42,764 nucleotides of DNA. Source: a virus. The position numbers and the translations under genes are program-made. The notes under the pieces were generated by a model. The model worked only from the letters and a program-made list of their open reading frames with translations. It searched no databases and was not told where the DNA came from. The stretch is taken from the IMG/VR virus record IMGVR_UViG_3300046834_000044, positions 1-42,764 of that record. One strand, given 5' to 3'. Numbering within the stretch: position 1 is the first letter of the stretch; every line of letters begins with the position of its first letter. Of the stretch, positions 4,637-34,956 are shown piece by piece.

Positions 4637-5410
4637 TCAGCTGGCCGCGTTGCCCTGGTTCTGCATGATCGCGATCATCTTGGCCTGCTCCTCCGGCGGC
4701 AGCCCTGCGATCATCGCCATGTAGTCCATTCCGTTACCGGCCGGGGCCACTGCCGCCGGAGCGAGCGCCGGGATGGCAACCGCAGCCGGAACTGTCGCCG
4801 GAGCGACGGCAGCCTGTGCGAACTGTGCGGCAGGGGCCGGGACCGCAACGGGCGCAGGGGCCGGGGGTGCCGCAACAGCCGGGGGGCGAGCGGCCACCGG
4901 AGCGGGAGCCGGAGGAGCCGGAGGTGCGGTCGGGTTGGCTGCCGGGGGGGTCGTGGCCGGAGCGCTGAGGTTGCTCGCGTCCCGGATGGCCTCGACGGTC
5001 TCGGCCTGGAAACCCTGGCCCTCCGGCGTGTGGTCCAACCACGACCCCAGGAACGCCATCCATTCGGGTTCGAGGGTGACGTCCTGGAGCAGCCACGGGG
5101 CGGACTGTCCCGGCTTGGCCTGTCCCTGGTAGATCCGACCGGCGATGAACTCACCGATCTGCTTGCGCAGGTTGTTGTACAGGCTCACGTTGAAGAACAG
5201 CACACCCCGGTAGATCGTCGGGTTCTGCGGGTCCTCAGCGAAGTCGGCCACGTTGCACTTGATGGCCTGACTGGTGTCGTCGCCCTTGTCGTACTCGGTC
5301 TTGATCGACGGGATGTACTCGATCGGGCCGAGGATCAGCGTGTGACCGACGATGTCCTTGGGCTTGAGCTGGTCGCCCTGCTCCATCTGCTTCGGGGCGG
5401 AAAGGCCCAT
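4637..5410 (-). CDS. Hypothetical DNA-metabolism protein with Ala/Pro-rich tail
   Basis: This 257-residue protein has a compact N-terminal domain (about 1-165) with KPKDIVGHTLILGPIEYIPS, then CNVADF and GVLFFNVSLYNNLRKQIGEFIAGRI. This beta-rich pattern resembles small actinophage proteins often found beside primases and suspected to bind ssDNA, but I see no diagnostic motif. Residues about 170-245 are low-complexity Ala/Pro/Val, followed by a short tail ending EEQAKMIAIMQNQGNAAS. An acidic or flexible tail after a folded core fits an SSB-like architecture; this is inference only. It starts at an ATG with AAGGAGAA upstream and lies directly before the PrimPol gene. Confidence 0.55.
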   Translation of the reverse strand: MGLSAPKQMEQGDQLKPKDIVGHTLILGPIEYIPSIKTEYDKGDDTSQAIKCNVADFAEDPQNPTIYRGVLFFNVSLYNNLRKQIGEFIAGRIYQGQAKPGQSAPWLLQDVTLEPEWMAFLGSWLDHTPEGQGFQAETVEAIRDASNLSAPATTPPAANPTAPPAPPAPAPVAARPPAVAAPPAPAPVAVPAPAAQFAQAAVAPATVPAAVAIPALAPAAVAPAGNGMDYMAMIAGLPPEEQAKMIAIMQNQGNAAS

Positions 5411-5479: not shown

Positions 5480-5495
5480 CTTGCCTAGCTGTCAA
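5480..5495 (-). promoter_or_regulatory. TTGACA-containing conserved promoter/operator element
   Basis: The minus strand reads TTGACAGCTAGGCAAG. Nearly the same 16 bases occur at 12150-12165 (minus, one difference) and 19562-19577 (plus, three differences), each upstream of a gene start. The perfect TTGACA suggests a -35 box for the gene starting at 5410, though a clear TANNNT at normal spacing is not obvious. The conserved GGCAA tail suggests a protein site over the -35. Confidence 0.45.
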
Positions 5496-5686
5496 GACGC
5501 CGGGTTGATCTCCCAGACGACCACCCTCAGGTCGTCGCTGGTGTCGCTGGTGCCGACGGTCGGCGGACCGATCGTCCGACCCAGAGCCCTTGCTTCGGTC
5601 TCCGCGTGGCTGGTGAGGATCAGCATTCCTTCGAGGCTCTGGGTGATCGCGAACGGCACCTCGACATACAGCACGCCCTTAACCAC
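5492..5686 (-). CDS. Small hypothetical protein
   Basis: This 64-residue protein starts at a GTG (VKGVLYVEVPFAITQSLEG) that overlaps the TAA of the DUF397 gene. Predicted strands at both ends (LYVEVPF and LRVVVWEI) suggest a small beta-containing fold. No family recognised. Its stop codon lies inside the conserved TTGACA element, showing how tightly control sequences are packed here. Confidence 0.5.
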   Translation of the reverse strand: MVKGVLYVEVPFAITQSLEGMLILTSHAETEARALGRTIGPPTVGTSDTSDDLRVVVWEINPAS

Positions 5687-8686: not shown

Positions 8687-8838
8687 TCGTCCATCACCCT
8701 TTCGTGCCACATCCGCTCCCACTGGATCGAGCGGTTCAGTTCGTCCATCTCGATGGTGTGCGCCAACCAGTGGAGCGCGAGCCCCACCGCTGCAACCACT
8801 ACTCCGAATAGAATGACCAGCCAGTCGCTTATCGCCAT
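8683..8838 (-). CDS. Small membrane protein
   Basis: This 51-residue ORF begins MAISDWLVILFGVVVAAVGL. One transmembrane helix (residues about 5-25) precedes a charged C-terminal helix rich in Glu, Arg and Trp. The start lies inside the last codons of the helicase gene and the stop overlaps the next GTG, so it sits in a coupled chain. Function unknown. Confidence 0.55.
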   Translation of the reverse strand: MAISDWLVILFGVVVAAVGLALHWLAHTIEMDELNRSIQWERMWHERVMDE

Positions 8839-10361
8839 AGCGTCGGGTCCAGAGGTCCGGGGTCGAGCATCAGCTTGGCCCGAGTGACGGTTACGTAGTT
8901 GAGCATGGAGTCTTCGGGGGCCGGGGGGAGCAGGTCACCGGTCTCCTTGTCCGCCGGGGGTACGAAGTCGTCCGCGACCCGAACGCTGTCCCATTCGAGA
9001 CCCTTCGCCTTGTGCGCCGTGCTCACGGTTACCTTGGCGTCCTTCTCGGCAGCCAACCCACGCACGGCGTCGATCACCTTTGAGACGCCGATCCGGTTGA
9101 TGATGCCGACCATGCGCTTCAGGTCGTCGGTGTCCTCTTCCTCGTCGACGTACTTGCAGAGCTGGTCCCAGTCGGTGAACCCCACCAGGTCGGGGTGGTC
9201 GGTCCCGTTGGCCTGCATCAGATCCCGAGCTGCCCACGCGAACCGCTCGATATCCTTGCCTGCCGACTTGTCCCCCGGGGCCAGCGCCACCGGCACCTCG
9301 CGCTCCTGGAACCGGAGCACCCAACCCAGCGCGGTTCCGTTCCCCCGGCAGAGGATCGCCCGGGGCTCGGGCAGCATGTCCGGCGTGACCACCCGAGACT
9401 GGATCTTGTCGTAACCCACCACCCTCTGCTTCGAGCCGAGACGCTCCAACCAGCCATTCGCGAACGCCGCGATGACCAGCCCGAACCGGAAGCTCATTGT
9501 GAGGCTGAGGCGCACGGCGTCTTCGATCTGGCTCATCGCGTCGACCGCGCCCCGCCAACCGTAGATGGCCTGGTTGGGGTCACCGATCCAGACGATCTGG
9601 GAGCCGAACGCCTCCTGCCGACGGACGATCGCTGCCATCACCGGGTCGGCATCCTGCGCCTCGTCGAAGATCAACAGGTCGCTCGGGATTCGCATGTCCT
9701 GGAGCTGCGCCAGCTTGAGGTACACGTCGGGCGTGAAGCGGAATCGCCCCCTCGGGTTGGTCAGGTCTTCCCAGATCTTCTCCGCCACGGGCAGGATCAC
9801 ATCGGCCAGGGCAACCGGGTCGTGCAGCCCGAGCACCCGCTGCGGGATGTGATGCGCGGCAACGGTCGGGTCTGCGGTCTTCATGTAGGCGTTCACCGTG
9901 GCCTGCGCCATCCGGGTCACGACCACCGGGTTGAGCGTAGCGGAGTCCAGGAGTGCGGGCTTCACCTTCATCGCTCGGGCCATCGCCTGCGCCGTGATCC
10001 GTGATGCGCCCGGGTTGCCCGGCAGACGGTTGGCATAGGGCTTGGCTGCGGCGTGATAGGCCAGACTGTGCCCAGTGCGGCAATCGACCCACTCGACCGG
10101 GAATCGCCCTTCGGCCTCGCGCTGCACGCTCTTGTTGAAGGCGATGTAGGTAGTCGGCACCCCCGGCATGGCCTTAGTGATCTCGACGGCCGTGCTGGTC
10201 TTGCCGGTGCCTGCCAGCGCCTCACCCACCACGCGGTTACCACCACGGGCGGCGTCGACAATCGCGACCTGCTCGTCTGTCATCGCAAACGCGGGCTTCA
10301 GGGCGGGATGGGTCGGTGCCACGTGGAACCGCCGGGATTGCCCGGGGGCTGAGAGCGGCAT
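8829..10361 (-). CDS. UvrD/Rep-type superfamily I DNA helicase
   Basis: This 510-residue protein carries the full SF1 motif set: a Q-motif region (TDEQVAIVDAA), Walker A in GEALAGTGKTSTA (about 46-58), Walker B in LLIFDEAQDADP, motif III in VWIGDPNQAIYGWRGA, motif V in STAHKAKGLEWDSV and motif VI in NYVTVTRAK. It unwinds DNA with 3'-5' polarity in its family and probably works in recombination or replication with the Cas4-like nuclease downstream. It is shorter than UvrD, lacking large insert domains. The ATG at 10361 has GGAGGTCAGTA upstream. A good candidate promoter lies at 10440-10469. Confidence 0.9.
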   Translation of the reverse strand: MPLSAPGQSRRFHVAPTHPALKPAFAMTDEQVAIVDAARGGNRVVGEALAGTGKTSTAVEITKAMPGVPTTYIAFNKSVQREAEGRFPVEWVDCRTGHSLAYHAAAKPYANRLPGNPGASRITAQAMARAMKVKPALLDSATLNPVVVTRMAQATVNAYMKTADPTVAAHHIPQRVLGLHDPVALADVILPVAEKIWEDLTNPRGRFRFTPDVYLKLAQLQDMRIPSDLLIFDEAQDADPVMAAIVRRQEAFGSQIVWIGDPNQAIYGWRGAVDAMSQIEDAVRLSLTMSFRFGLVIAAFANGWLERLGSKQRVVGYDKIQSRVVTPDMLPEPRAILCRGNGTALGWVLRFQEREVPVALAPGDKSAGKDIERFAWAARDLMQANGTDHPDLVGFTDWDQLCKYVDEEEDTDDLKRMVGIINRIGVSKVIDAVRGLAAEKDAKVTVSTAHKAKGLEWDSVRVADDFVPPADKETGDLLPPAPEDSMLNYVTVTRAKLMLDPGPLDPTLWR

Positions 10362-10437: not shown

Positions 10438-10659
10438 CTATCCTACCGTACGGGTTGCCCATCGCGCAATCCACTCCTTCTGCCAGCTTAACGGACAGGG
10501 CTCCAGGTCTGTTTCACGTGGAACGATGCGGAGGAGCTTGCGATTCCCCCGGCCGAGGGCTCGCTTCCTCAGGTTGGTGTACGCGTTGCGCCCTGTCGGG
10601 CTCCAGTGCTCGCATTCGAACACCAGGGCCCGACAGGCACCACACGGGCGGGGTGTCAT
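10438..10659 (-). CDS. Small CxxC protein
   Basis: This 73-residue protein starts MTPRPCGACRALVFECEHW. Its CGAC and EC segments suggest a small zinc site, followed by a very basic middle (NLRKRALGRGNRKLLR) that could contact nucleic acid, and a Trp-rich C terminus. The ATG overlaps the TGA of the helix-turn-helix gene (ATGA). Function unknown. Confidence 0.55.
   Translation of the reverse strand: MTPRPCGACRALVFECEHWSPTGRNAYTNLRKRALGRGNRKLLRIVPRETDLEPCPLSWQKEWIARWATRTVG
10440..10469 (-). promoter_or_regulatory. Putative promoter for the helicase gene block
   Basis: On the minus strand: TTGCGC, an 18-bp spacer ending ACGG, then TAGGAT. It lies at the 3' end of the preceding small gene and reads toward the helicase and the chain of coupled genes after it. 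Confidence 0.45.
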
Positions 10660-10865
10660 TCGGTTGGCTGCCGCGCCATCCGCTGTTCGAGATCCCACCC
10701 GTACGTTCCGTTTCTGATCGACTCCGACTGTTCGTCCATGCTCCAGTCGAGCTGTTGCTTGATCAACCACATCAGCTCGACGCTCGGTCGTCGCTTCCCG
10801 TCGAGCAGACGACTGATCGTAGCATCCGACCTGCCGACCAGACGGGCCAGCTCGGACGCGATCAC
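10656..10865 (-). CDS. Small helix-turn-helix (XRE/Cro-like) protein
   Basis: This 69-residue protein contains a Cro/C1-type HTH: SELARLVGRSDATISRLLDG, followed by KRRPSVELMWLIKQQLDW. It starts at a GTG overlapping the TGA of purB. It is the only XRE-type regulator in the window and is co-transcribed with purB, so it may control the purB/purZ divergent region. It is too small and too embedded to look like a lysogeny repressor. Confidence 0.75.
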   Translation of the reverse strand: MIASELARLVGRSDATISRLLDGKRRPSVELMWLIKQQLDWSMDEQSESIRNGTYGWDLEQRMARQPTE

Positions 10866-12094
10866 GGCTTAGCCCAATGCCGGAGGTACCAGGTCGGGTC
10901 GGTCGGCTGCCGGTCGGTCACGATCGGGTGGAGGAGGCACTGCATCAGGGCGTGCTCTCGTGCCGCTTTGGCGTCCATCCCTGAGCTTATCGCCTCGAGG
11001 GTTACCTTGTGCACAGACAGCTCGCTCTCGTGTTCGTGCAGCGCCAGTTCTGCTCCCTGCCCCAGTTCGAACGACTCCAGGAGCTTCACGGTCTCTCGTT
11101 CCACGTGAAACAGGACGTGCCAGAGGTCGGGAACCGCGACCCGTTCGACGCAGCTGTTGCTGATGTCTCGTTCGAGCCACAGGTCGAGGGGCTGGAGACT
11201 GGCGGCGTACGCGGCAGCCAACCGCTGCATGCCCGTGATCTGCTCCGCCCGGATCGGGTTGGTCTTGTGTGCCATCGACGACGAACCGACCTGGCCTGCC
11301 GGGTGGACGAGCTTGCCCTCCCCGAGCAGCAACATCAACCGGATGTCCATCGCGATCTTGGCACAAGCCGACACCACCTGGGCTGCGTCGGTTGCCCAAT
11401 GCGCCAGCCGGTCACGCGGCGCGATCTGAGAGGCTCCCTGCCCGCAACTGACCAAGCCCAACTCAATCGCGACCTTGGACTCGACCCACGGGCCGTTGTG
11501 TGCGTAATTGCCGACCGGACCGCTCGTCTTGGCCACCTGCATCTCGCCGATCGCGCCTTGAAGCCGTTCGAGCGCGGGGGACAGCAGCGCGTTCCAGTGC
11601 GACGCCCGCATCCCCATCGAGATCGGCTCGGCGGGTTCGCCGTGAGTCCGACCCACTACCATCTGCTCGCTCTTCACCCACCGATCAACAGCCTGCCGGA
11701 GGTTGCAAGCCAGACGCCATGCCCTCGGCCCCAAAGACCGGAACCGCATGCCCTGCGCGGTGTCGACGATGTCGGACGAGGTGAGGCCGTAGTGGATCCA
11801 CCGGCCGTGCGGTTCTCCGTACCAATCACGCATGAACCGCACGAACGCGGCGACGTCGTGTCGATCTTCAGCCTCGTACGCGGCCAGGCCGGTCAGAGTC
11901 CAGGGATCGTCGAAGTCGGGGTGCACGGCCAACAGCGGCTTCGTCTGCTCCGCGCGTTCCTGCTTGTCCGGGTCCTTGCCGCACTGCTCGATCTGCGCTC
12001 GGGCGACCGCTCGTTCGACCTGCCACCACGCGTTGTACGTCCACTGTCTCGACCAGAGAGCCGTCACATGGGAATCTCGGTACCTGTCGTCCAT
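10862..12094 (-). CDS. purB: Adenylosuccinate lyase
   Basis: This 410-residue protein is a full fumarase/aspartase-superfamily lyase. Visible PurB hallmarks are RHDVAAFVR (78-86), GLTSSDIVDT (103-112), the catalytic-histidine segment RTHGEPAEP (149-157), the flexible-loop signature GSSSMAHKTNP (270-280) and LERDISNSCVER (307-318). PurB removes fumarate from adenylosuccinate; in phages with 2-aminoadenine DNA the same step converts the PurZ product to 2-amino-dAMP. Known Z-phages generally rely on the host enzyme, so a phage copy divergent from purZ is notable. The ATG at 12094 with GAGGAG upstream is chosen over a longer start that would cover the shared promoter region. Confidence 0.92.
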   Translation of the reverse strand: MDDRYRDSHVTALWSRQWTYNAWWQVERAVARAQIEQCGKDPDKQERAEQTKPLLAVHPDFDDPWTLTGLAAYEAEDRHDVAAFVRFMRDWYGEPHGRWIHYGLTSSDIVDTAQGMRFRSLGPRAWRLACNLRQAVDRWVKSEQMVVGRTHGEPAEPISMGMRASHWNALLSPALERLQGAIGEMQVAKTSGPVGNYAHNGPWVESKVAIELGLVSCGQGASQIAPRDRLAHWATDAAQVVSACAKIAMDIRLMLLLGEGKLVHPAGQVGSSSMAHKTNPIRAEQITGMQRLAAAYAASLQPLDLWLERDISNSCVERVAVPDLWHVLFHVERETVKLLESFELGQGAELALHEHESELSVHKVTLEAISSGMDAKAAREHALMQCLLHPIVTDRQPTDPTWYLRHWAKP

Positions 12095-12149
12095 CTTGGC
12101 TCCTCGTCGGGGTGCGGGGGGATCGTTGTGGCCCCATGGGACCATGGCT

Positions 12150-12180
12150 CTTGCCTGGCTGTCAAGGGCTGTGGTAGAGT
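12150..12180 (+). promoter_or_regulatory. Divergent purZ/purB control region with promoter
   Basis: On the plus strand: TTGCCT (12151-12156), 18-bp spacer ending TGTGG, then TAGAGT (12175-12180), about 48 nt upstream of the purZ start. The -35 lies within CTTGCCTGGCTGTCAA, whose reverse gives TTGACAGCCAGGCAAG, matching the elements at 5480 and 19562 and giving a perfect -35 box pointing to purB. One site may therefore set both transcripts. Confidence 0.6.
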
Positions 12181-12228
12181 ACCGTAATCCCCAGCCGGAC
12201 GGCCGGGGCACACACCCTAGGGGGATGA

Positions 12229-13278
12229 GTGACCAACGTCATCGTGGTCGTCGGAGCGCAGTTCGGCTCTGAGGCTAAGGGGGCCATCACTGGTCGGTTG
12301 GCTGCCGATCTGGGCCCGCACGACGTGAACATCCGGGTGGCTGGCCCGAACGCCGGACACACCGCCTACGACCCGGACGGTCGGGAATGGAAGCTCCGCA
12401 CGATTCCGGTCGGAGCGGTCACCAGCAGGACCTGCCAGCTCCACCTGGCTGCCGGTTCGGAGATCGACCCGCTTGTTTTGGCGACTGAGATGTCCATGTT
12501 GGAGGAGGCTGGTCACGACGTCACCCGGCGGCTGACCATCCACCCGTCAGCCACGATCCTCGAACCCCGGCACCAACGGCAGGAGTCCGAGGCCGGGATC
12601 GTCGGCCGGGTGGGCTCGACCGGCAAGGGCATCGGCGCAGCTCGGGCCGAACGGGTCATGCGGACTGCTTTCACCTACCGGGAGTTCGCTGCGGGCAAGC
12701 CCTCGGCGTCTGCTCTGATGAGCGAGTCGGGGCCGTTCGATCTGGACGGCGTGGGCACGGTGGTCATCGAGGGAACCCAGGGCTACGGGCTCGGCCTGCA
12801 CACCCGGTTCTACCCGCAGGTGACCTCGTCCGACTGCCGGGCGATCGACTTCCTGGCGATGGCGGGGATCTCGCCCTGGGACGATCAGGTTCTGGACCTC
12901 CAGGTCATCCTGGTCGCCCGGACCTTCCCGATTCGGGTGGCGGGCAACTCGGGCCCGCTGAAGGGTGAGTCGACCTGGGCGGACCTCGGGCTGCCGGAGG
13001 AACGGACCACGGTCACTAACAACATCCGCCGGGTCGGCACCTGGGACGCACAGCTTCTCGACGAGGCGATCCGGGCAAACGGGGGCGGCAACTGGTCGCA
13101 GAACGTCACGCTCGCCATCACGATGCTCGACCAGCTCTTCCCCGAGAGCGCGGGCAAGACCGAAAGCGACCTCCCTGCCGACGCCCGCGAATGGCTGGTC
13201 GAGATCCAGGACGCGTTCGAAACCACCATCTCGTACGTCGGCACCGGCCCGACTACTCACTTCGAAGTGGAGCTGTAA
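12229..13278 (+). CDS. purZ: PurZ: 2-aminodeoxyadenylosuccinate synthetase (Z-genome pathway)
   Basis: This 349-residue PurA homologue is shorter than bacterial PurA (about 430). The N-terminal loop reads GAQFGSEAKG, with serine at position 14 where PurA has the catalytic aspartate of GDEGKG; that change is the known mark of PurZ. Other conserved parts are NAGHT (41-45), STGKGIG (130-136), EGTQGYGL (181-188) and VTSSDC. PurZ joins aspartate to dGMP to make the precursor of 2-amino-dAMP (base Z). The start is a GTG at 12229 preceded by AGGGGG; it has its own promoter, and its TAATG junction couples it to the MazZ-like gene. Assignment as PurZ rather than PurA rests on the Ser, the length and the neighbours. 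Confidence 0.88.
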   Translation: MTNVIVVVGAQFGSEAKGAITGRLAADLGPHDVNIRVAGPNAGHTAYDPDGREWKLRTIPVGAVTSRTCQLHLAAGSEIDPLVLATEMSMLEEAGHDVTRRLTIHPSATILEPRHQRQESEAGIVGRVGSTGKGIGAARAERVMRTAFTYREFAAGKPSASALMSESGPFDLDGVGTVVIEGTQGYGLGLHTRFYPQVTSSDCRAIDFLAMAGISPWDDQVLDLQVILVARTFPIRVAGNSGPLKGESTWADLGLPEERTTVTNNIRRVGTWDAQLLDEAIRANGGGNWSQNVTLAITMLDQLFPESAGKTESDLPADAREWLVEIQDAFETTISYVGTGPTTHFEVEL

Positions 13279-13943
13279 TGACCAACCCCCTGATCTGCGG
13301 GGTCCTCAGCCCGAGCACCGACCGTCCCTGTCTGAAGCCGGACAGCCACCGCCGGACCGAGGAACGGCCCGTCCACCAGAACGGCTCGCTGACCTGGAGC
13401 CTGCCGCTGCCGGAGGAACTGAGGATGCGGGGGCACACCCCGACCTACGAAGTGCAGGACGAGGCGTTCACTCACCTCCGGGGCCTCCAGGACACCACGG
13501 TCTCGTTCAAGGGCGTGTTCGACTCGGCAGCCATGAAAGACAACTTCGCCAAGCTGTTCAGGGACGTCCCGCCGAGCTACAAGGTCGTGTCGTTCTCGAC
13601 CGGCATCCCCGAGCCCACCCCCGGTGAACGGCTGGCAGCCTGGTGGCGCGAGCAGGCCGAATACGAGATCGAGCAGACGGTCAGCAAGGCGGTCGAGTAC
13701 GGGTCGACCGACCTGATCGACATCGGCAGGTCGCTGGCTCGGATCTGCGACCGCGAGGTCGACGACGAGGAAGCAGCCGAGATGGGTGTCTTCTTCTACC
13801 TGGAGGGCAAGTTCGCTCGGTGGCGTTCGGCACTCCAGCGGGGCCAGCGTCCCTCGGACGATACCCTGCTGGACATCGGGGTCTACGTCCGGATGGCCCA
13901 GCGGATCCGCGAGGCTGGCGGCTGGCCCGGAGTTGGAGAATGA
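13278..13943 (+). CDS. mazZ: MazG-like nucleotide pyrophosphohydrolase (MazZ candidate)
   Basis: This 221-residue protein has an unrecognised N-terminal part (1-115) and a C-terminal all-alpha NTP-pyrophosphohydrolase domain. That domain contains VEYGSTDL (139-146), REVDDEEAAEMGVFFYLEGKFARW (the ExxE region, about 159-182) and PSDDTLLDIGVYVRMAQRIREAGGWPG (acidic residues near 194-199). This pattern matches actinophage MazG-like proteins and the dGTP/dATP diphosphohydrolase family. In Z-phages, MazZ converts dGTP to dGMP, the PurZ substrate. Its ATG shares a base with the purZ stop (TAATG), so the two are made together. Specificity for dGTP is inferred from context. Confidence 0.7.
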   Translation: MTNPLICGVLSPSTDRPCLKPDSHRRTEERPVHQNGSLTWSLPLPEELRMRGHTPTYEVQDEAFTHLRGLQDTTVSFKGVFDSAAMKDNFAKLFRDVPPSYKVVSFSTGIPEPTPGERLAAWWREQAEYEIEQTVSKAVEYGSTDLIDIGRSLARICDREVDDEEAAEMGVFFYLEGKFARWRSALQRGQRPSDDTLLDIGVYVRMAQRIREAGGWPGVGE

Positions 13944-14476: not shown

Positions 14477-15406
14477 ATGATGTTCGTCTACCTCGCCAAC
14501 CCGATCGACCAGGCGGACAGTCTGCTCGGCATCGACAACATCACACACACCTTGAGCACCTGCGGGATCTCCTGGTACCACCCGGCTACCGCCTTCCACC
14601 TTAACAACATGTGTGGCCCCCTGGACCTGCGGGCGATCGACCGGATCAACCAAGAGGCACTCAGCCGCGCCGATGCGTTGTTGGTTTGGCTGCCGCGTGG
14701 TGTGCCGACCCTCGGGGTCCCGGTGGAGATCGAAACCGCGCTCCAGGCCAACACCCCCACCGTGATCCTGACCAACATCGACCGGAGCGTCCAGTTGACC
14801 TCCTGGGAGTCGAGGGGCGCGTCGGTCATCCGGTGGGACCACACGATCTCACAGCAGTGGGAGAACAACCCGAAACAGCTGCTCGCGCTCCTCCGGGTTC
14901 AGCCGGAGACCATCGGTCTTTACGACGTCGCGGCAGCCAACCACACCAAGCAGGTCGCGTTGATGCGGCACCCCGGCCCGAAGACCGATGACCTGCAGAT
15001 CAAGCTGGACCCCCGGGCGATCATGCCGAGTCGGGCGCACGACGATGACGCTGGGCTCGACCTGGCGCTGTTCCGCAATGAGAAGCTGGAGGCCGGAGAA
15101 TGCCGGATGTTGGCGACGGGGATCAAGGCAGCGCTTCCGGCTGGCTACTGGGGTTTGATCATCCCTCGGTCGTCCACCTGGGTGAAGTATCAGGTCGACG
15201 TTCGGCTGGCCGTCATCGACGCCGGGTATCGTGGCGAGCTTATGGTCCAGGCGCACAATCAAAGCACGCGGCCAATCACGTTCGTCGCCGGAACTCGGCT
15301 GGCGCAGTACGTGCTGCTGCCGACGTGGCTCGGGAAGCCGACCGAGGTGTCGGAGCTGCCGGAGCACACTCGGGGCGAGAAGGGCTACGGGAGCAGCGGC
15401 AGCTGA
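14477..15406 (+). CDS. Nucleoside deoxyribosyltransferase-like / dUTPase fusion
   Basis: This 309-residue protein has two domains. Residues 1 to about 145 resemble nucleoside 2-deoxyribosyltransferases: MFVYLANPIDQADS, WYHPATAFHL, AIDRINQEALSRADALLVWLP and VEIETALQANTPTVIL. Residues about 165-309 hold the five dUTPase motifs: DDDAGLDL, PRSSTW, VIDAGYRGELMV, GTRLAQYVL and RGEKGYGSSG. The dUTPase half converts dUTP to dUMP and keeps uracil out of DNA. The first half may hydrolyse or exchange bases of deoxynucleotides; in this operon it could act on unwanted dNMPs, which is speculation. Starts at ATGATG (14477 or 14480) after AAAGGGA. Confidence 0.85.
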   Translation: MMFVYLANPIDQADSLLGIDNITHTLSTCGISWYHPATAFHLNNMCGPLDLRAIDRINQEALSRADALLVWLPRGVPTLGVPVEIETALQANTPTVILTNIDRSVQLTSWESRGASVIRWDHTISQQWENNPKQLLALLRVQPETIGLYDVAAANHTKQVALMRHPGPKTDDLQIKLDPRAIMPSRAHDDDAGLDLALFRNEKLEAGECRMLATGIKAALPAGYWGLIIPRSSTWVKYQVDVRLAVIDAGYRGELMVQAHNQSTRPITFVAGTRLAQYVLLPTWLGKPTEVSELPEHTRGEKGYGSSGS

Positions 15407-15880: not shown

Positions 15881-16321
15881 TCAGTTTGCGCCGCGCCGGT
15901 TCTCCTCGCGGATTTTCATCAGTAAATTTCCGAGGGTGTTCTTGCCCTTGCCCTTGCATGCTTCGTGCCGGGTGCATTGTCCCCAAAAATTGTCGTGCCA
16001 AATGTTTCCCTCGATAATTTGCGCGTCGCCAGTTTCCTCAAGCAAATTGCGGAGGGTTGCGTCGCGGAATTTGCGCCGCAAAATTTCCTCCATGATATTT
16101 ACTTTGAGCAATTCCCAGTCTTCGCGGAGGGTGCATCGTTTGCCTGCGTGCTTGGCCTGCCCCGGCTTCGGTCGGGAAAGGATGTGGGCCCTTTCCTCGC
16201 GGCTCTCGGTCTTGGCCGCCTGGAAAATGTGCTCGGCTGTTTTCCCGTTGGCTTCCGTGTGGAAATTGCTGAGGGGGGCCCATTTGCCGGTGAGGCTCTT
16301 GATTGTTTCGCTCTCTCTCAT
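15881..16321 (-). CDS. NADAR-family protein (possible anti-DarT1 glycohydrolase)
   Basis: This 146-residue protein is a clear NADAR (YbiA-like) domain: PLSNF (16-20), TAEHIFQAAK (28-37), PGQAKHAGKRC, METFIX-like IMEEILRRKFRD helix, ETGDAQIIEGNIWHDNFWG (96-114) and GKNTLGNLLMKIRE (127-140). NADAR enzymes cleave ADP-ribose from guanine in DNA and act as antitoxins to DarT1; orphan phage copies have been shown to counter DarTG1 defence. It has its own strong promoter, and the ATG lies only six bases after a TAAAAT box, so its mRNA looks leaderless. Its codon use is more A/T-rich than the neighbours, suggesting recent transfer. Confidence 0.82.
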   Translation of the reverse strand: MRESETIKSLTGKWAPLSNFHTEANGKTAEHIFQAAKTESREERAHILSRPKPGQAKHAGKRCTLREDWELLKVNIMEEILRRKFRDATLRNLLEETGDAQIIEGNIWHDNFWGQCTRHEACKGKGKNTLGNLLMKIREENRRGAN

Positions 16322-19623: not shown

Positions 19624-20001
19624 ATGACCAACGGCAAACGGACGAGCGGGCTCGGCGAGCCACTGATCACCTACGCACAGGCCAACGCTGGCCGCGTCCT
19701 CACCATCGACGAGCTGATGCAGAACCACCCGCTCGGCACCACGCTGGAACGGTCGCAGATCAGCTCGGCGATGAACAACCTGGTCGTCCGAGGGATCGTC
19801 CCCGGCTTGGCCAGGGGTAGGGCTCGCGGCACCTGGGTCTACACCCCCGGGGGTAAGGCGGCAGCCAACCCGACACTGCCGCCCAAGGACGAGAACCTTG
19901 GCGTGGCTATCGTCGACCTCGTCGGCATGGACAAAGAAGGCCTGTACATCGGGGTCGACAAGGACAACGGGCGCGTCTTCAAGATGGAGAGGATTGCATG
20001 A
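19624..20001 (+). CDS. Winged-helix-like regulatory protein
   Basis: This 125-residue protein begins MTNGKRTSGLGEPLITYAQ. It has a winged-helix-like section: GRVLTIDELMQ, then LERSQISSAMNNLVVRGIV, then a wing with GTWVYTPGGK. A linker leads to a C-terminal beta part (LGVAIVDLVGMDKEGLYIGVDK). It resembles the smaller protein at 1178-1399. The start is the ATG at 19624 with AGGAGGAACG upstream. It precedes whiB in the operon, with an ATGA overlap, suggesting joint regulatory roles. Confidence 0.65.
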   Translation: MTNGKRTSGLGEPLITYAQANAGRVLTIDELMQNHPLGTTLERSQISSAMNNLVVRGIVPGLARGRARGTWVYTPGGKAAANPTLPPKDENLGVAIVDLVGMDKEGLYIGVDKDNGRVFKMERIA

Positions 20002-20285
20002 ACAAGAGGCGCAGCCGGGGTGGCCAGGCCACCCCGGCGTGCCGGGAATATGACCCGGACATCTGGTTTCCGGTCGGGTACACGGGCGAGGCCAACCTAA
20101 GCCAGATCATGCTTGCTACGCTGGTCTGCGCGAGCTGTCCACTGCGGATCGGCTGCCTCGAATATGCACTGTCGAACAACGAAGGCGTCGGGATCTGGGG
20201 TGGACTCACCCCCGAAGAACGTCGCGGGATGCGTGGTGTGGAAGGTGGCAAGGATGAGCTTCATGCAGCGCTGGCAACGGCGTAG
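19998..20285 (+). CDS. whiB: WhiB-family transcription factor
   Basis: This 95-residue Wbl protein has the four Fe-S-cluster cysteines (C15, C44, C47, C53, spaced as C-x28-C-x2-C-x5-C) and the GIWGG turn (65-69) followed by TPEERR. Wbl proteins bind a 4Fe-4S cluster and contact the primary sigma factor. They are restricted to actinobacteria and their phages; phage versions such as WhiB of mycobacteriophage TM4 interfere with host WhiB2 and septation. The basic N-terminal MNKRRSRGG and the ATGA overlap with the upstream gene are visible. Confidence 0.92.
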   Translation: MNKRRSRGGQATPACREYDPDIWFPVGYTGEANLSQIMLATLVCASCPLRIGCLEYALSNNEGVGIWGGLTPEERRGMRGVEGGKDELHAALATA

Positions 20286-32760: not shown

Positions 32761-33462
32761 TCAACCCCGCAGGGCTGCGATCTGCTCTGCCTGCTGCTTC
32801 CGGCTCGAACGCAACCAGCGGATGTACGCCGACCGGTCCCGCTCGTACTGATCGGGCCCGTTCACCCTGACGTACCCGCTGTCCCATTCGCTCTTGTTGG
32901 CGACCGGGTGCATGTGCTCAATGAACACGGACGGCAGGTACCGGATGCACCTGGCCGCCTTGCCGAGTTCGAGAACCGCATTGTCACAGTAGAGGTGCTC
33001 GACATCGGCGGGGACCATCCGACCCAACGTGCGGATGATCGGCTCGGACATCGCCCACCACGTCGGCAGCTTGATGTCCTTCAGCCCGTCTCGACCGTAG
33101 AAGATCCCGGGGCCGTGTGTCCTGGAGGCGGCAGCCAACGCAACAGCCCACCCCGGTGTGCGTGGAAGGTGGTCGTCACCCATGAACCCCACGACATCGG
33201 CCTGGACCGTCACGGCGACCTCGTTCAACTTGCGCACCATCGGGGTCCAGTACTGAACGCACGCAACCTCCATCCACGGGTGTCGCGCCAACGCGTCCTG
33301 GTACTGAATGGCCATCGGGTCGTCGAGGTCGAGAATCCAGATCAGTCGGGCCTCTTTGAGCGGGTCAGTCTGCTCCCAGGCCTCTGCCTGCCTGTCGACA
33401 GACTCCGGTCGCCCCCTGCTGGGGATCAGCATCGCCACGCCGGTCACTGCGTCTTCTTCCAC
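32761..33462 (-). CDS. Glycosyltransferase (GT-A, family 2-like)
   Basis: This 233-residue protein starts with a GT-A pattern: GVAMLIPSRGRPESVDRQAEAW, then LIWILDLDDP with acidic residues, then VVGFMGDDHLPRTPGW, whose DD supplies the metal/nucleotide-sugar site. Later segments have HLYCDNAVLELGK and VFIEHMHPVANKSEW. It probably transfers a sugar to a virion protein or the host surface. It lies in a three-gene cassette with a methyltransferase and another glycosyltransferase, between the capsid and connector genes. Confidence 0.8.
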   Translation of the reverse strand: MEEDAVTGVAMLIPSRGRPESVDRQAEAWEQTDPLKEARLIWILDLDDPMAIQYQDALARHPWMEVACVQYWTPMVRKLNEVAVTVQADVVGFMGDDHLPRTPGWAVALAAASRTHGPGIFYGRDGLKDIKLPTWWAMSEPIIRTLGRMVPADVEHLYCDNAVLELGKAARCIRYLPSVFIEHMHPVANKSEWDSGYVRVNGPDQYERDRSAYIRWLRSSRKQQAEQIAALRG

Positions 33463-34106
33463 CAGCCGCAGGGTGAGTGCGACACCGAAAAGGCACCCTC
33501 GATTTCAGTGTCGCGATACCAGCCGCCCCGGGCCTCCGGGTTCCACGTGCGGATTGCGGCGAGGGGCCCACCGACCTCGGGGATCTTCGCCCCGCCTCGC
33601 CGAGCATCCTCGTCGTACCACGTGTCGAAGCAGCCGTCCTCGACCACCAGGAAGCTGCCCGGGGTGACCAGCTCGGAATAGAGCCGGATCTCCTCCAGGA
33701 CGTGCGGGGCGTGGTGGTCCGAATCAAGGATCACCATGGTCCGCTTGCCGCGCGCCCACTCGGCGACCACCGAGTACAAGTGCCGGTCGGTCGAGTCACC
33801 GATGACGTACTGAATGTTCCGGTTGTGGGTGTCGTAGTTCTTGGCAGTCCACCCGATCAGCGGGTTGGTGTCGATCGAGACCACGAGGGCGTTGCGTGCA
33901 GTCTCGTGCAGCCATCCGGCCGAACCGCCCCACCGGGTGCCGGTCTCGATGATCACTTCGGGCTGCGCGATCCCGATCCCCATCTGCAACCGGCTGAGGT
34001 CCTGCCAGCATTTCTGGGTCTTGCGCCCGTACGCGAACACCTCGAATGTACCCTCGTGGAACGTCGCGAGGGTTTGGTCATTGCTCCAGTTAGGCAGGGG
34101 CTCCAT
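33444..34106 (-). CDS. CmcI-like SAM-dependent methyltransferase
   Basis: This 220-residue protein has a class I methyltransferase pattern: PEVIIETGTRWGGSAGW (SAM loop), NALVVSIDTNPLIGW, then RTMVILDSDHHAPHVLEEI and LVTPGSFLVVEDG. The DSDHHAPHVLEEIRLYSELV string is typical of the cephalosporin hydroxylase (CmcI) family, which phages carry beside glycosyltransferases. It overlaps both neighbours (33444-33462 and 34090-34106), so the three genes form one unit, and it may methylate a sugar added to the virion. Confidence 0.78.
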   Translation of the reverse strand: MEPLPNWSNDQTLATFHEGTFEVFAYGRKTQKCWQDLSRLQMGIGIAQPEVIIETGTRWGGSAGWLHETARNALVVSIDTNPLIGWTAKNYDTHNRNIQYVIGDSTDRHLYSVVAEWARGKRTMVILDSDHHAPHVLEEIRLYSELVTPGSFLVVEDGCFDTWYDEDARRGGAKIPEVGGPLAAIRTWNPEARGGWYRDTEIEGAFSVSHSPCGWWKKTQ

Positions 34107-34956
34107 CGCTGCCTCCCCCGAACACCGGATCGACGTCGGGCTGTTCGTACATGTCGGCCGAGATCCAGATGTCCTTGTGATGGGTCGTCTGGATTCCGGT
34201 GTGGACGTACGCCGGGTAGCCCGCCCGGTTGGCCCGGTAGCAGAATGACAGGTCCTCAGAGATCGGCTTACCGTCTCCGTAGGCCACCGGCGTGTACCAG
34301 TGATCGCCGTCCTTCAGCTCGATAGCCTCGAGGACCGTTCGGTGAATCAGGATGAACGCAGACCCGGTTCCGGCGACCGGCACCAGCTCGTTCTCCGGGT
34401 ACGTGCTCATGTTGATGAACCCGAGCGTCCCGGCTCGATCTCGCGCCATGCCGAACATCGTTGGCAGCGGACGGACGATGAATCCACCCGACCCGTCCGG
34501 TCGGATGTTCCTCGCGGCGAAGCACAGCCCACCGACGATCGGTCGGTCGATCGGGTCAGCGGCAGCCACCAACCGATCCAGCGCGTCGGCCTCGAACCCC
34601 ATGTCGGTATCGACCCAGAAGAACCACTCGTGGGGGCTGTTGTCCAGGAACCACCGAACGGCGGTGTTGCGTCCCTCGACCAGGCCGTGCGGGCCCGAAC
34701 AGAACACTCGGTACGGTGCGCTGCCGACGAGGTTCATGCCGACCGACTTGTCGTAGGCGAGCATGTCCATCATCGAAGAGTGCCACGAATGCGACACCCG
34801 GTGCTCGTGCGCGTATGCGATCTGCACCCGGCCGTCCCACCCCACGAGGATGCCCTCGTCGGTCACGCCCGCGAACTCGTCGGGGCTCTGGGGCACTGGG
34901 GCCGGGGTGGCGGCTGCCGTCGTCTCCGGAGCGGTCTCCGGCGTCGAATCAGGCAT
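34090..34956 (-). CDS. Glycosyltransferase-like protein
   Basis: This 288-residue protein has a Pro/Thr/Ala-rich N terminus, then an IAYAHEHRVSHSWHSS region, GLVEGRNTAVRWFLDN, EWFFWVDTDMGFEADALDRL (DTD metal motif of GT-A enzymes), IVGGLCFAARNI and a C-terminal EDLSFCYRANRAGYPAYVHTG segment with HHKD. It is a second sugar transferase in the cassette. The start is at MPDSTPETAPE (34956), just inside the end of the upstream gene. Confidence 0.75.
   Translation of the reverse strand: MPDSTPETAPETTAAATPAPVPQSPDEFAGVTDEGILVGWDGRVQIAYAHEHRVSHSWHSSMMDMLAYDKSVGMNLVGSAPYRVFCSGPHGLVEGRNTAVRWFLDNSPHEWFFWVDTDMGFEADALDRLVAAADPIDRPIVGGLCFAARNIRPDGSGGFIVRPLPTMFGMARDRAGTLGFINMSTYPENELVPVAGTGSAFILIHRTVLEAIELKDGDHWYTPVAYGDGKPISEDLSFCYRANRAGYPAYVHTGIQTTHHKDIWISADMYEQPDVDPVFGGGSDGAPA

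Follow-up and report, generated by a model that had tools for sequence, protein, structure and literature searches.

How much of the pathway to 2-aminoadenine (Z) DNA is encoded by the phages that use it, and in particular whether the lyase step from dSMP, the succino compound derived from dGMP, to the Z nucleotide dZMP can be a phage function, is the question raised by IMG/VR viral record IMGVR_UViG_3300046834_000044. This single record of 42,764 bp and 65% GC, the whole of which was analysed and is called the window here, is probably a near-complete actinophage genome, and in it the gene for a PurB-like adenylosuccinate lyase lies divergently next to the gene for PurZ, the predicted dSMP-forming enzyme. 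The dSMP to dZMP step has been described as having no phage gene (PMC8342488), and a bacterial PurB has been named for it (PMC12783734). PurB is not mentioned in a 2026 survey of PurZ0 phages (PMC12884076), and our search of openly accessible papers found no paper on phage PurB with PurZ. A preliminary description of this DNA had taken it for a likely Z-phage, which is supported as a prediction from its genes: the window phage very probably encodes a PurZ0-type route to Z-DNA with a lyase of its own.

The PurZ protein scores 335.9 bits against the NCBIfam PurZ profile NF038379 (cut-off 300), remains far under every PurA cut-off in the profile search, and carries the motif GAQFGSEAKG, with Ser14 where PurA has the catalytic Asp13. 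Its best match among solved structures is 7vf6, whose aligned residues are identical to gp50, the PurZ of Gordonia phage Archimedes; the PurZ structures of S-2L and phiVC8 follow with E values of 8e-39 and 2.5e-25. A maximum-likelihood tree separates PurZ together with PurZ0 from the PurA of Escherichia coli and of archaea (100/100) and places the window protein among those of PurZ0 phages. The earlier reading of this protein as PurZ from its Ser14 is thereby upheld by profile, structure match and a phylogeny that places it outside the cellular PurA clade, and by these comparisons it is a member of the PurZ0 branch, far from PurA. Less certain is the strict unity of PurZ0 beside ATP-type PurZ, which 68% of bootstrap trees recovered. 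Asp301 (TMLD) is invariant in 9 of 9 aligned PurZ0 proteins and matches the position of the archaeal PurA Asp, an alignment that fits the predicted use of GTP. PurA/PurZ homologues with GSSGKG or GSCGKG, and hence Ser at the catalytic position, were also seen in large viral contigs (L098, L101, L105, L106, L117 and L129; 62-427 kb), with a bacterial-type PurB on the same records; they may represent further PurZ-like systems in large phages.

The preliminary description had also claimed a complete lyase gene divergent from purZ, and this holds. The start of purB is most likely ATG 12094, because GAGGAG lies just upstream and related proteins begin at the same MxxRY; a longer open reading frame from GTG 12211 was rejected as an over-extension. 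The protein matches TIGR00928 (E 3e-66; 223.9 bits, below the equivalog cut-off of 326.2), and its best match in the PDB is 1c3u (E 9e-49). The active-site signature of the family (His, Ser loop, Lys/Asn) is present in the alignment to 1c3u, and residues H79, T105/S106, H151, Q223, S271/S272, K277, N279 and R309 are invariant in 15 sequences.

Phage PurB is not unique to the window and is frequent among PurZ0 phages, so that the earlier view of the gene set as unusual had to be abandoned. Adenylosuccinate lyase is annotated in four Gordonia and four Streptomyces phages that are Z-phages; all 11 public Gordonia and Streptomyces phage records with PurB also hold PurZ and a relative of the gene that follows purZ in the window (Nmad1-like, see below); and PurB is present in 21 of the 44 other PurZ0 contigs of IMG/VR (at least 10 kb, those with the window's layout counted apart). 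Scanning viral contigs with a single PurZ or PurB sequence gave no match, and alignment-based queries were needed. PurB was found in none of 12 isolate records that appear to be Arthrobacter phages. The divergent arrangement, with 100-134 bp between purB and purZ, is shared by the window and 7 further IMG/VR contigs, which together make a clade of 8 related phages (independent contigs of 37-45 kb). Elsewhere the order is purZ, Nmad1-like gene, purB (about ten contigs), or purB and purZ overlap (contig L104), and in L124 and L125 a more distant Ser-type PurZ directly precedes PurB.

In the PurB tree (long-branch rows L104, L114, L116 and L124 left out), 28 PurBs of PurZ phages are split with 100/100 support from 36 PurBs of bacteria or large viruses, and the window protein falls in the phage group; an earlier tree of 68 PurB rows including long branches was less clear. 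The bacterial rows are the closest that were found, a choice that works against separation. Among the residues that mark the phage group are Pro193, kept in 28 of 29 sequences where bacteria mostly have Ala, and Leu230, kept in 23 of 29 where the bacterial residue is mostly His. Mapped on the PurZ tree, with sampling biased towards PurB-bearing rows, the distribution of PurB across the 36 rows requires four changes, and the PurB-less phages of Arthrobacter, Microbacterium, Micrococcus and Curtobacterium form one group (97/94). This pattern suggests that PurB was present early among PurZ0 phages and was later lost.

A control region shared by purB and purZ had been proposed for the window and is now seen in 8 genomes. 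The 17-bp palindrome CTTGNCNNNNNGNCAAG occurs in the purB/purZ intergenic region of 8 of 8 clade members, and in at most 1 in 10,000 first-order Markov shuffles of each region. Its ends act as -35-like hexamers in both directions, with -10-like hexamers 18 nt further on in most genomes; those of the window are TAGAGT on the purZ side and a weak TCCCAT on the purB side, and in L013 and L016 the purZ side carries an additional TTGAC element that overlaps. A generic sigma-70 scan of the intergenic region found no promoter because the window hexamers are weak, and the case for a promoter stands on conservation across genomes. The palindrome may function as an operator, or it may be no more than a pair of -35 elements that overlap. 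Every relative has at least one extra copy within the stretch examined, and the window alone, with one mismatch allowed, has 2 copies against 1.22 expected, which is no excess over chance. Copies were also noted in the examined part of Arthrobacter phage Wayne (5) and in Curtobacterium phage Parvaparticeps (2); the palindrome may be a wider actinophage promoter element.

The gene following purZ begins within the purZ stop codon (TAATG), and translational coupling, as earlier proposed, is therefore plausible; its naming as a MazZ-like enzyme did not survive. Identification as MazZ, DUF550 or DUF5664 was dropped, as the protein has no Pfam or PHROGs match of its own, and comparison with single sequences of S-2L MazZ, SH-Ab 15497 and Wayne DUF5664 gave hhalign probabilities under 1%. 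The family sits downstream of PurZ0 in most of the related loci and PurZ0 phages examined, and is conserved over its last 105-115 residues. A confident AlphaFold model (predicted local distance difference test 89.7) shows four helices. In a Foldseek search of predicted viral folds, members of its own family from Gordonia and other phages came first, and the nearest named matches beyond them are DUF6378 proteins and nucleotide modification associated domain proteins (probability 0.9-1.0, template modelling score near 0.5, weak E values of 0.03-0.3). The model matched no solved structure in the PDB, and a PDB sequence search with the domain alignment returned designed helical proteins only. The motifs KxxxYG, KxxR and DxxxY are present in the order and with the inner spacing of Nmad1 proteins (hhalign 21-46%). 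By predicted fold and motifs the protein appears to be close to Nmad1/DUF6378 and is named Nmad1-like here, with nucleotide hydrolysis as a candidate activity. A small family in Vibrio phage VP2, a PurZ phage (L210, 3847-4164), and its relatives L302-L308, with motifs RYG, KxARI and YPDNWHDIxGY, shows weak similarity to this domain.

A further gene of the same pathway, encoding a fusion of DmtZ and DutZ, lies outside the range of 10862-13943 to which the pathway had been confined, the genes within that range being real. Its DmtZ part keeps the triad Y5/N58/E84 together with D11 and P36, judged against the reference features, i.e. the Tyr/Asn/Glu triad of nucleoside deoxyribosyltransferases (NDT) plus Asp12 and Pro57 (PMC12884076). 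The Wayne fusion converts dATP mainly to adenine, and dGTP to dGMP (PMC12884076), so that by analogy dATP removal and supply of dGMP as PurZ substrate are probably functions of the window protein. A Dut-like gene was present in 29 of 29 PurZ0 records tested.

The genes, their families, active-site residues, order, shared motif and tree positions are observed, and from them we infer the following scheme. DutZ, possibly with the Nmad1-like protein, would cut dATP and dGTP to dAMP and dGMP; PurZ would form dSMP from dGMP and aspartate, probably using GTP; and phage PurB would convert dSMP to dZMP with release of fumarate. DmtZ would destroy dAMP, and may salvage the Z base to dZMP. Conversion of dZMP to dZTP still needs kinases, presumably those of the host, and the earlier description of the pathway as self-contained was in this respect overstated. 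PrimPol would then copy the genome, with A excluded mainly by the emptied dATP pool. Since purB and purZ would be transcribed outward from one promoter region, two consecutive steps could be switched on together.

Several points weigh against this scheme. The clade is known from genes, its reactions and base composition being predicted; PurB scores under the equivalog cut-off for cellular PurB, and its substrate could differ; the PurB tree excluded four rows, and L120, a contig in which no PurZ was found, was counted with the PurZ phages post hoc by its place in the tree. PurB could also be an ordinary auxiliary metabolic gene, unrelated to Z, that raises flux to AMP or 5-aminoimidazole-4-carboxamide ribonucleotide (AICAR): the enzyme works in general purine synthesis, and a bacterial-type PurB is found in some large viruses, two of which have an Asp-type PurA. 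This appears quite improbable given the divergent position of the window purB beside purZ with a shared promoter region, the separate tree group of the PurZ-phage PurBs, and the presence of a Ser-type PurZ-like protein in 26 of 39 PurB-bearing viral records against Asp-type PurA in 2, a count that depends on a query made from the PurBs of PurZ phages.

Replication raises two further alternatives to the proposed route. All Z-phages except S-2L are reported to have a PolA-type polymerase (PMC8342488), and DNA polymerase I (Pol I) is usual in PurZ0 records of near-full length from outside the clade. The absence of Pol I, overlooked in the preliminary description, extends over the clade: PF00476 was matched neither in the window nor in its 7 relatives, and PF00136 in none of the 8 contigs. 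PF09250 was found in 7 of 8, and the PrimPol motifs D95xD97, SGGxH133 and D154xR156 are invariant in the six members aligned. In the remaining contig, G007, the core model of PrimPol gave no hit, and the stretch matched by the window PrimPol ends at the edge of the locus. Completeness of each contig is unproven, so that the missing Pol I relies on the agreement of eight contigs; a Pol I in a part of the genome missing from the assembly, or replication by a host polymerase, would make the PrimPol-only reading wrong. With eight independent contigs agreeing and the catalytic motifs of PrimPol kept, this is unlikely, if by no means far-fetched. Somewhat harder to credit is that Z is only an intermediate or a partial constituent of mixed A/Z DNA in a phage that has no Z-selective polymerase. 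No Pol I was found, and S-2L PrimPol alone takes both A and Z (PMC8065100); DmtZ-DutZ, however, should deplete dATP, and S-2L achieves full replacement with PrimPol and dATP removal (PMC8342488, PMC8065100). Within the limits of contig completeness, the clade would be a second exception without PolA-type polymerase, on a different branch from S-2L.

In polymerase content (PrimPol, no Pol I) the clade thus resembles cyanophage S-2L and not the known PurZ0 phages. S-2L shares PrimPol, lack of Pol I and dATP removal, whereas it has an ATP-type PurZ, DatZ and MazZ in place of DutZ/DmtZ, and no annotated PurB (PMC8342488). Gordonia phages Ghobes and Archimedes have, like the window, PurZ0, an Nmad1-like gene after PurZ, DmtZ, DutZ, PrimPol and a helicase adjoining PurB, but they possess Pol I, purB and purZ are 6-7 kb apart, and DmtZ and DutZ are separate genes. 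Streptomyces phages Hiyaa, Galactica, Keanu and Spocter share PurZ0, PurB, the Nmad1-like domain and a Dut-like gene near PurZ, but are about 80 kb long with purB downstream on the same strand, and Keanu has Pol I. Arthrobacter phage Wayne shares PurZ0 and the DmtZ-DutZ fusion (PMC12884076), but has DUF5664 instead of the Nmad1-like gene, has Pol I, and no PurB was found in it. The window phage seems to be a new combination, in which a PurZ0 pathway and a phage PurB have a promoter region in common and the lineage seemingly lacks a Z-selective polymerase.

It is tempting to propose jointly that PurB has long been a specialised part of the PurZ0 pathway, passed on together with PurZ0 but lost from the well-studied Arthrobacter/Microbacterium lineage, and that the clade, separately from S-2L, excludes A without a Z-selective polymerase by means of PrimPol and dATP destruction by DmtZ-DutZ; for the whole of this we would claim slightly less than an even chance. 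Should PurB commonly accompany PurZ0, a phage step has to be added to the accepted pathway, and purB together with purZ would make a better kit for producing Z-DNA in cells. A PurZ0 lineage with PrimPol as its only polymerase would show whether full replacement of A can be reached by emptying the dATP pool.

Table. Features of the window discussed in the text.
Feature	Position	Strand	Evidence or remark
PrimPol-helicase, 829 aa	2054..4543	-	PF09250 E 4e-18; only polymerase found
Conserved gene	4637-5410	-	second palindrome copy upstream
Second exact palindrome copy	5480..5496		upstream of gene 4637-5410(-)
UvrD-like helicase	8829..10322	-	part of same replication block
Small helix-turn-helix protein	10656..10865	-	HTH_3 E 1e-4; start overlaps purB stop
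PurB-like adenylosuccinate lyase, 410 aa	10862..12094	-	TIGR00928, 1c3u, active site, tree; predicted dSMP to dZMP + fumarate
Divergent purB/purZ control region	12095..12228		17-bp palindrome CTTGNCNNNNNGNCAAG at 12150-12166
PurZ (PurZ0 type), 349 aa, Ser14	12229..13278	+	NF038379; 7vf6 E 8e-84; tree
Candidate nucleotide hydrolase	13278..13943	+	C-terminal Nmad1/DUF6378-like four-helix domain
Gene of unassigned function, conserved in place across the 8-phage clade	13940..14359	+	35-58% identity over 81-111 residues
DmtZ-DutZ fusion (NDT-like and Dut-like domains)	14477..15406	+	dUTPase PF00692 E 7e-23; NDT PF05014 E 0.008
WhiB-type regulator	19998-20285	+	PF02467

The window has the gene order of a tailed phage: the minus strand carries replication genes between 481 and 12094 and the plus strand the Z genes between 12229 and 15406, after which come small early genes and then minus-strand genes for lysin, tail, capsid (PF05065), portal and terminase; it holds no Rfam match and no tRNA. 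The WhiB gene, present in 8 of 8 clade members and in 1 of 22 other PurZ0 phage records tested, indicates actinobacterial hosts. The helix-turn-helix gene lies behind purB in all relatives except L015, and a regulatory role of its product is a guess. The protein encoded between the Nmad1-like and fusion genes has no Pfam match and no convincing alignment with positional counterparts in other phages. A NADAR-domain protein (15881-16321, minus strand; PF08719, E 2e-22) has a single counterpart within the clade, found in L011, the closest relative (75% identity). Between the capsid and head-tail genes, in the minus-strand stretch 32761-34956, a gene for a CmcI-type methyltransferase (PF04989, E 7e-28) is flanked by two genes without Pfam match whose products look glycosyltransferase-like by eye.

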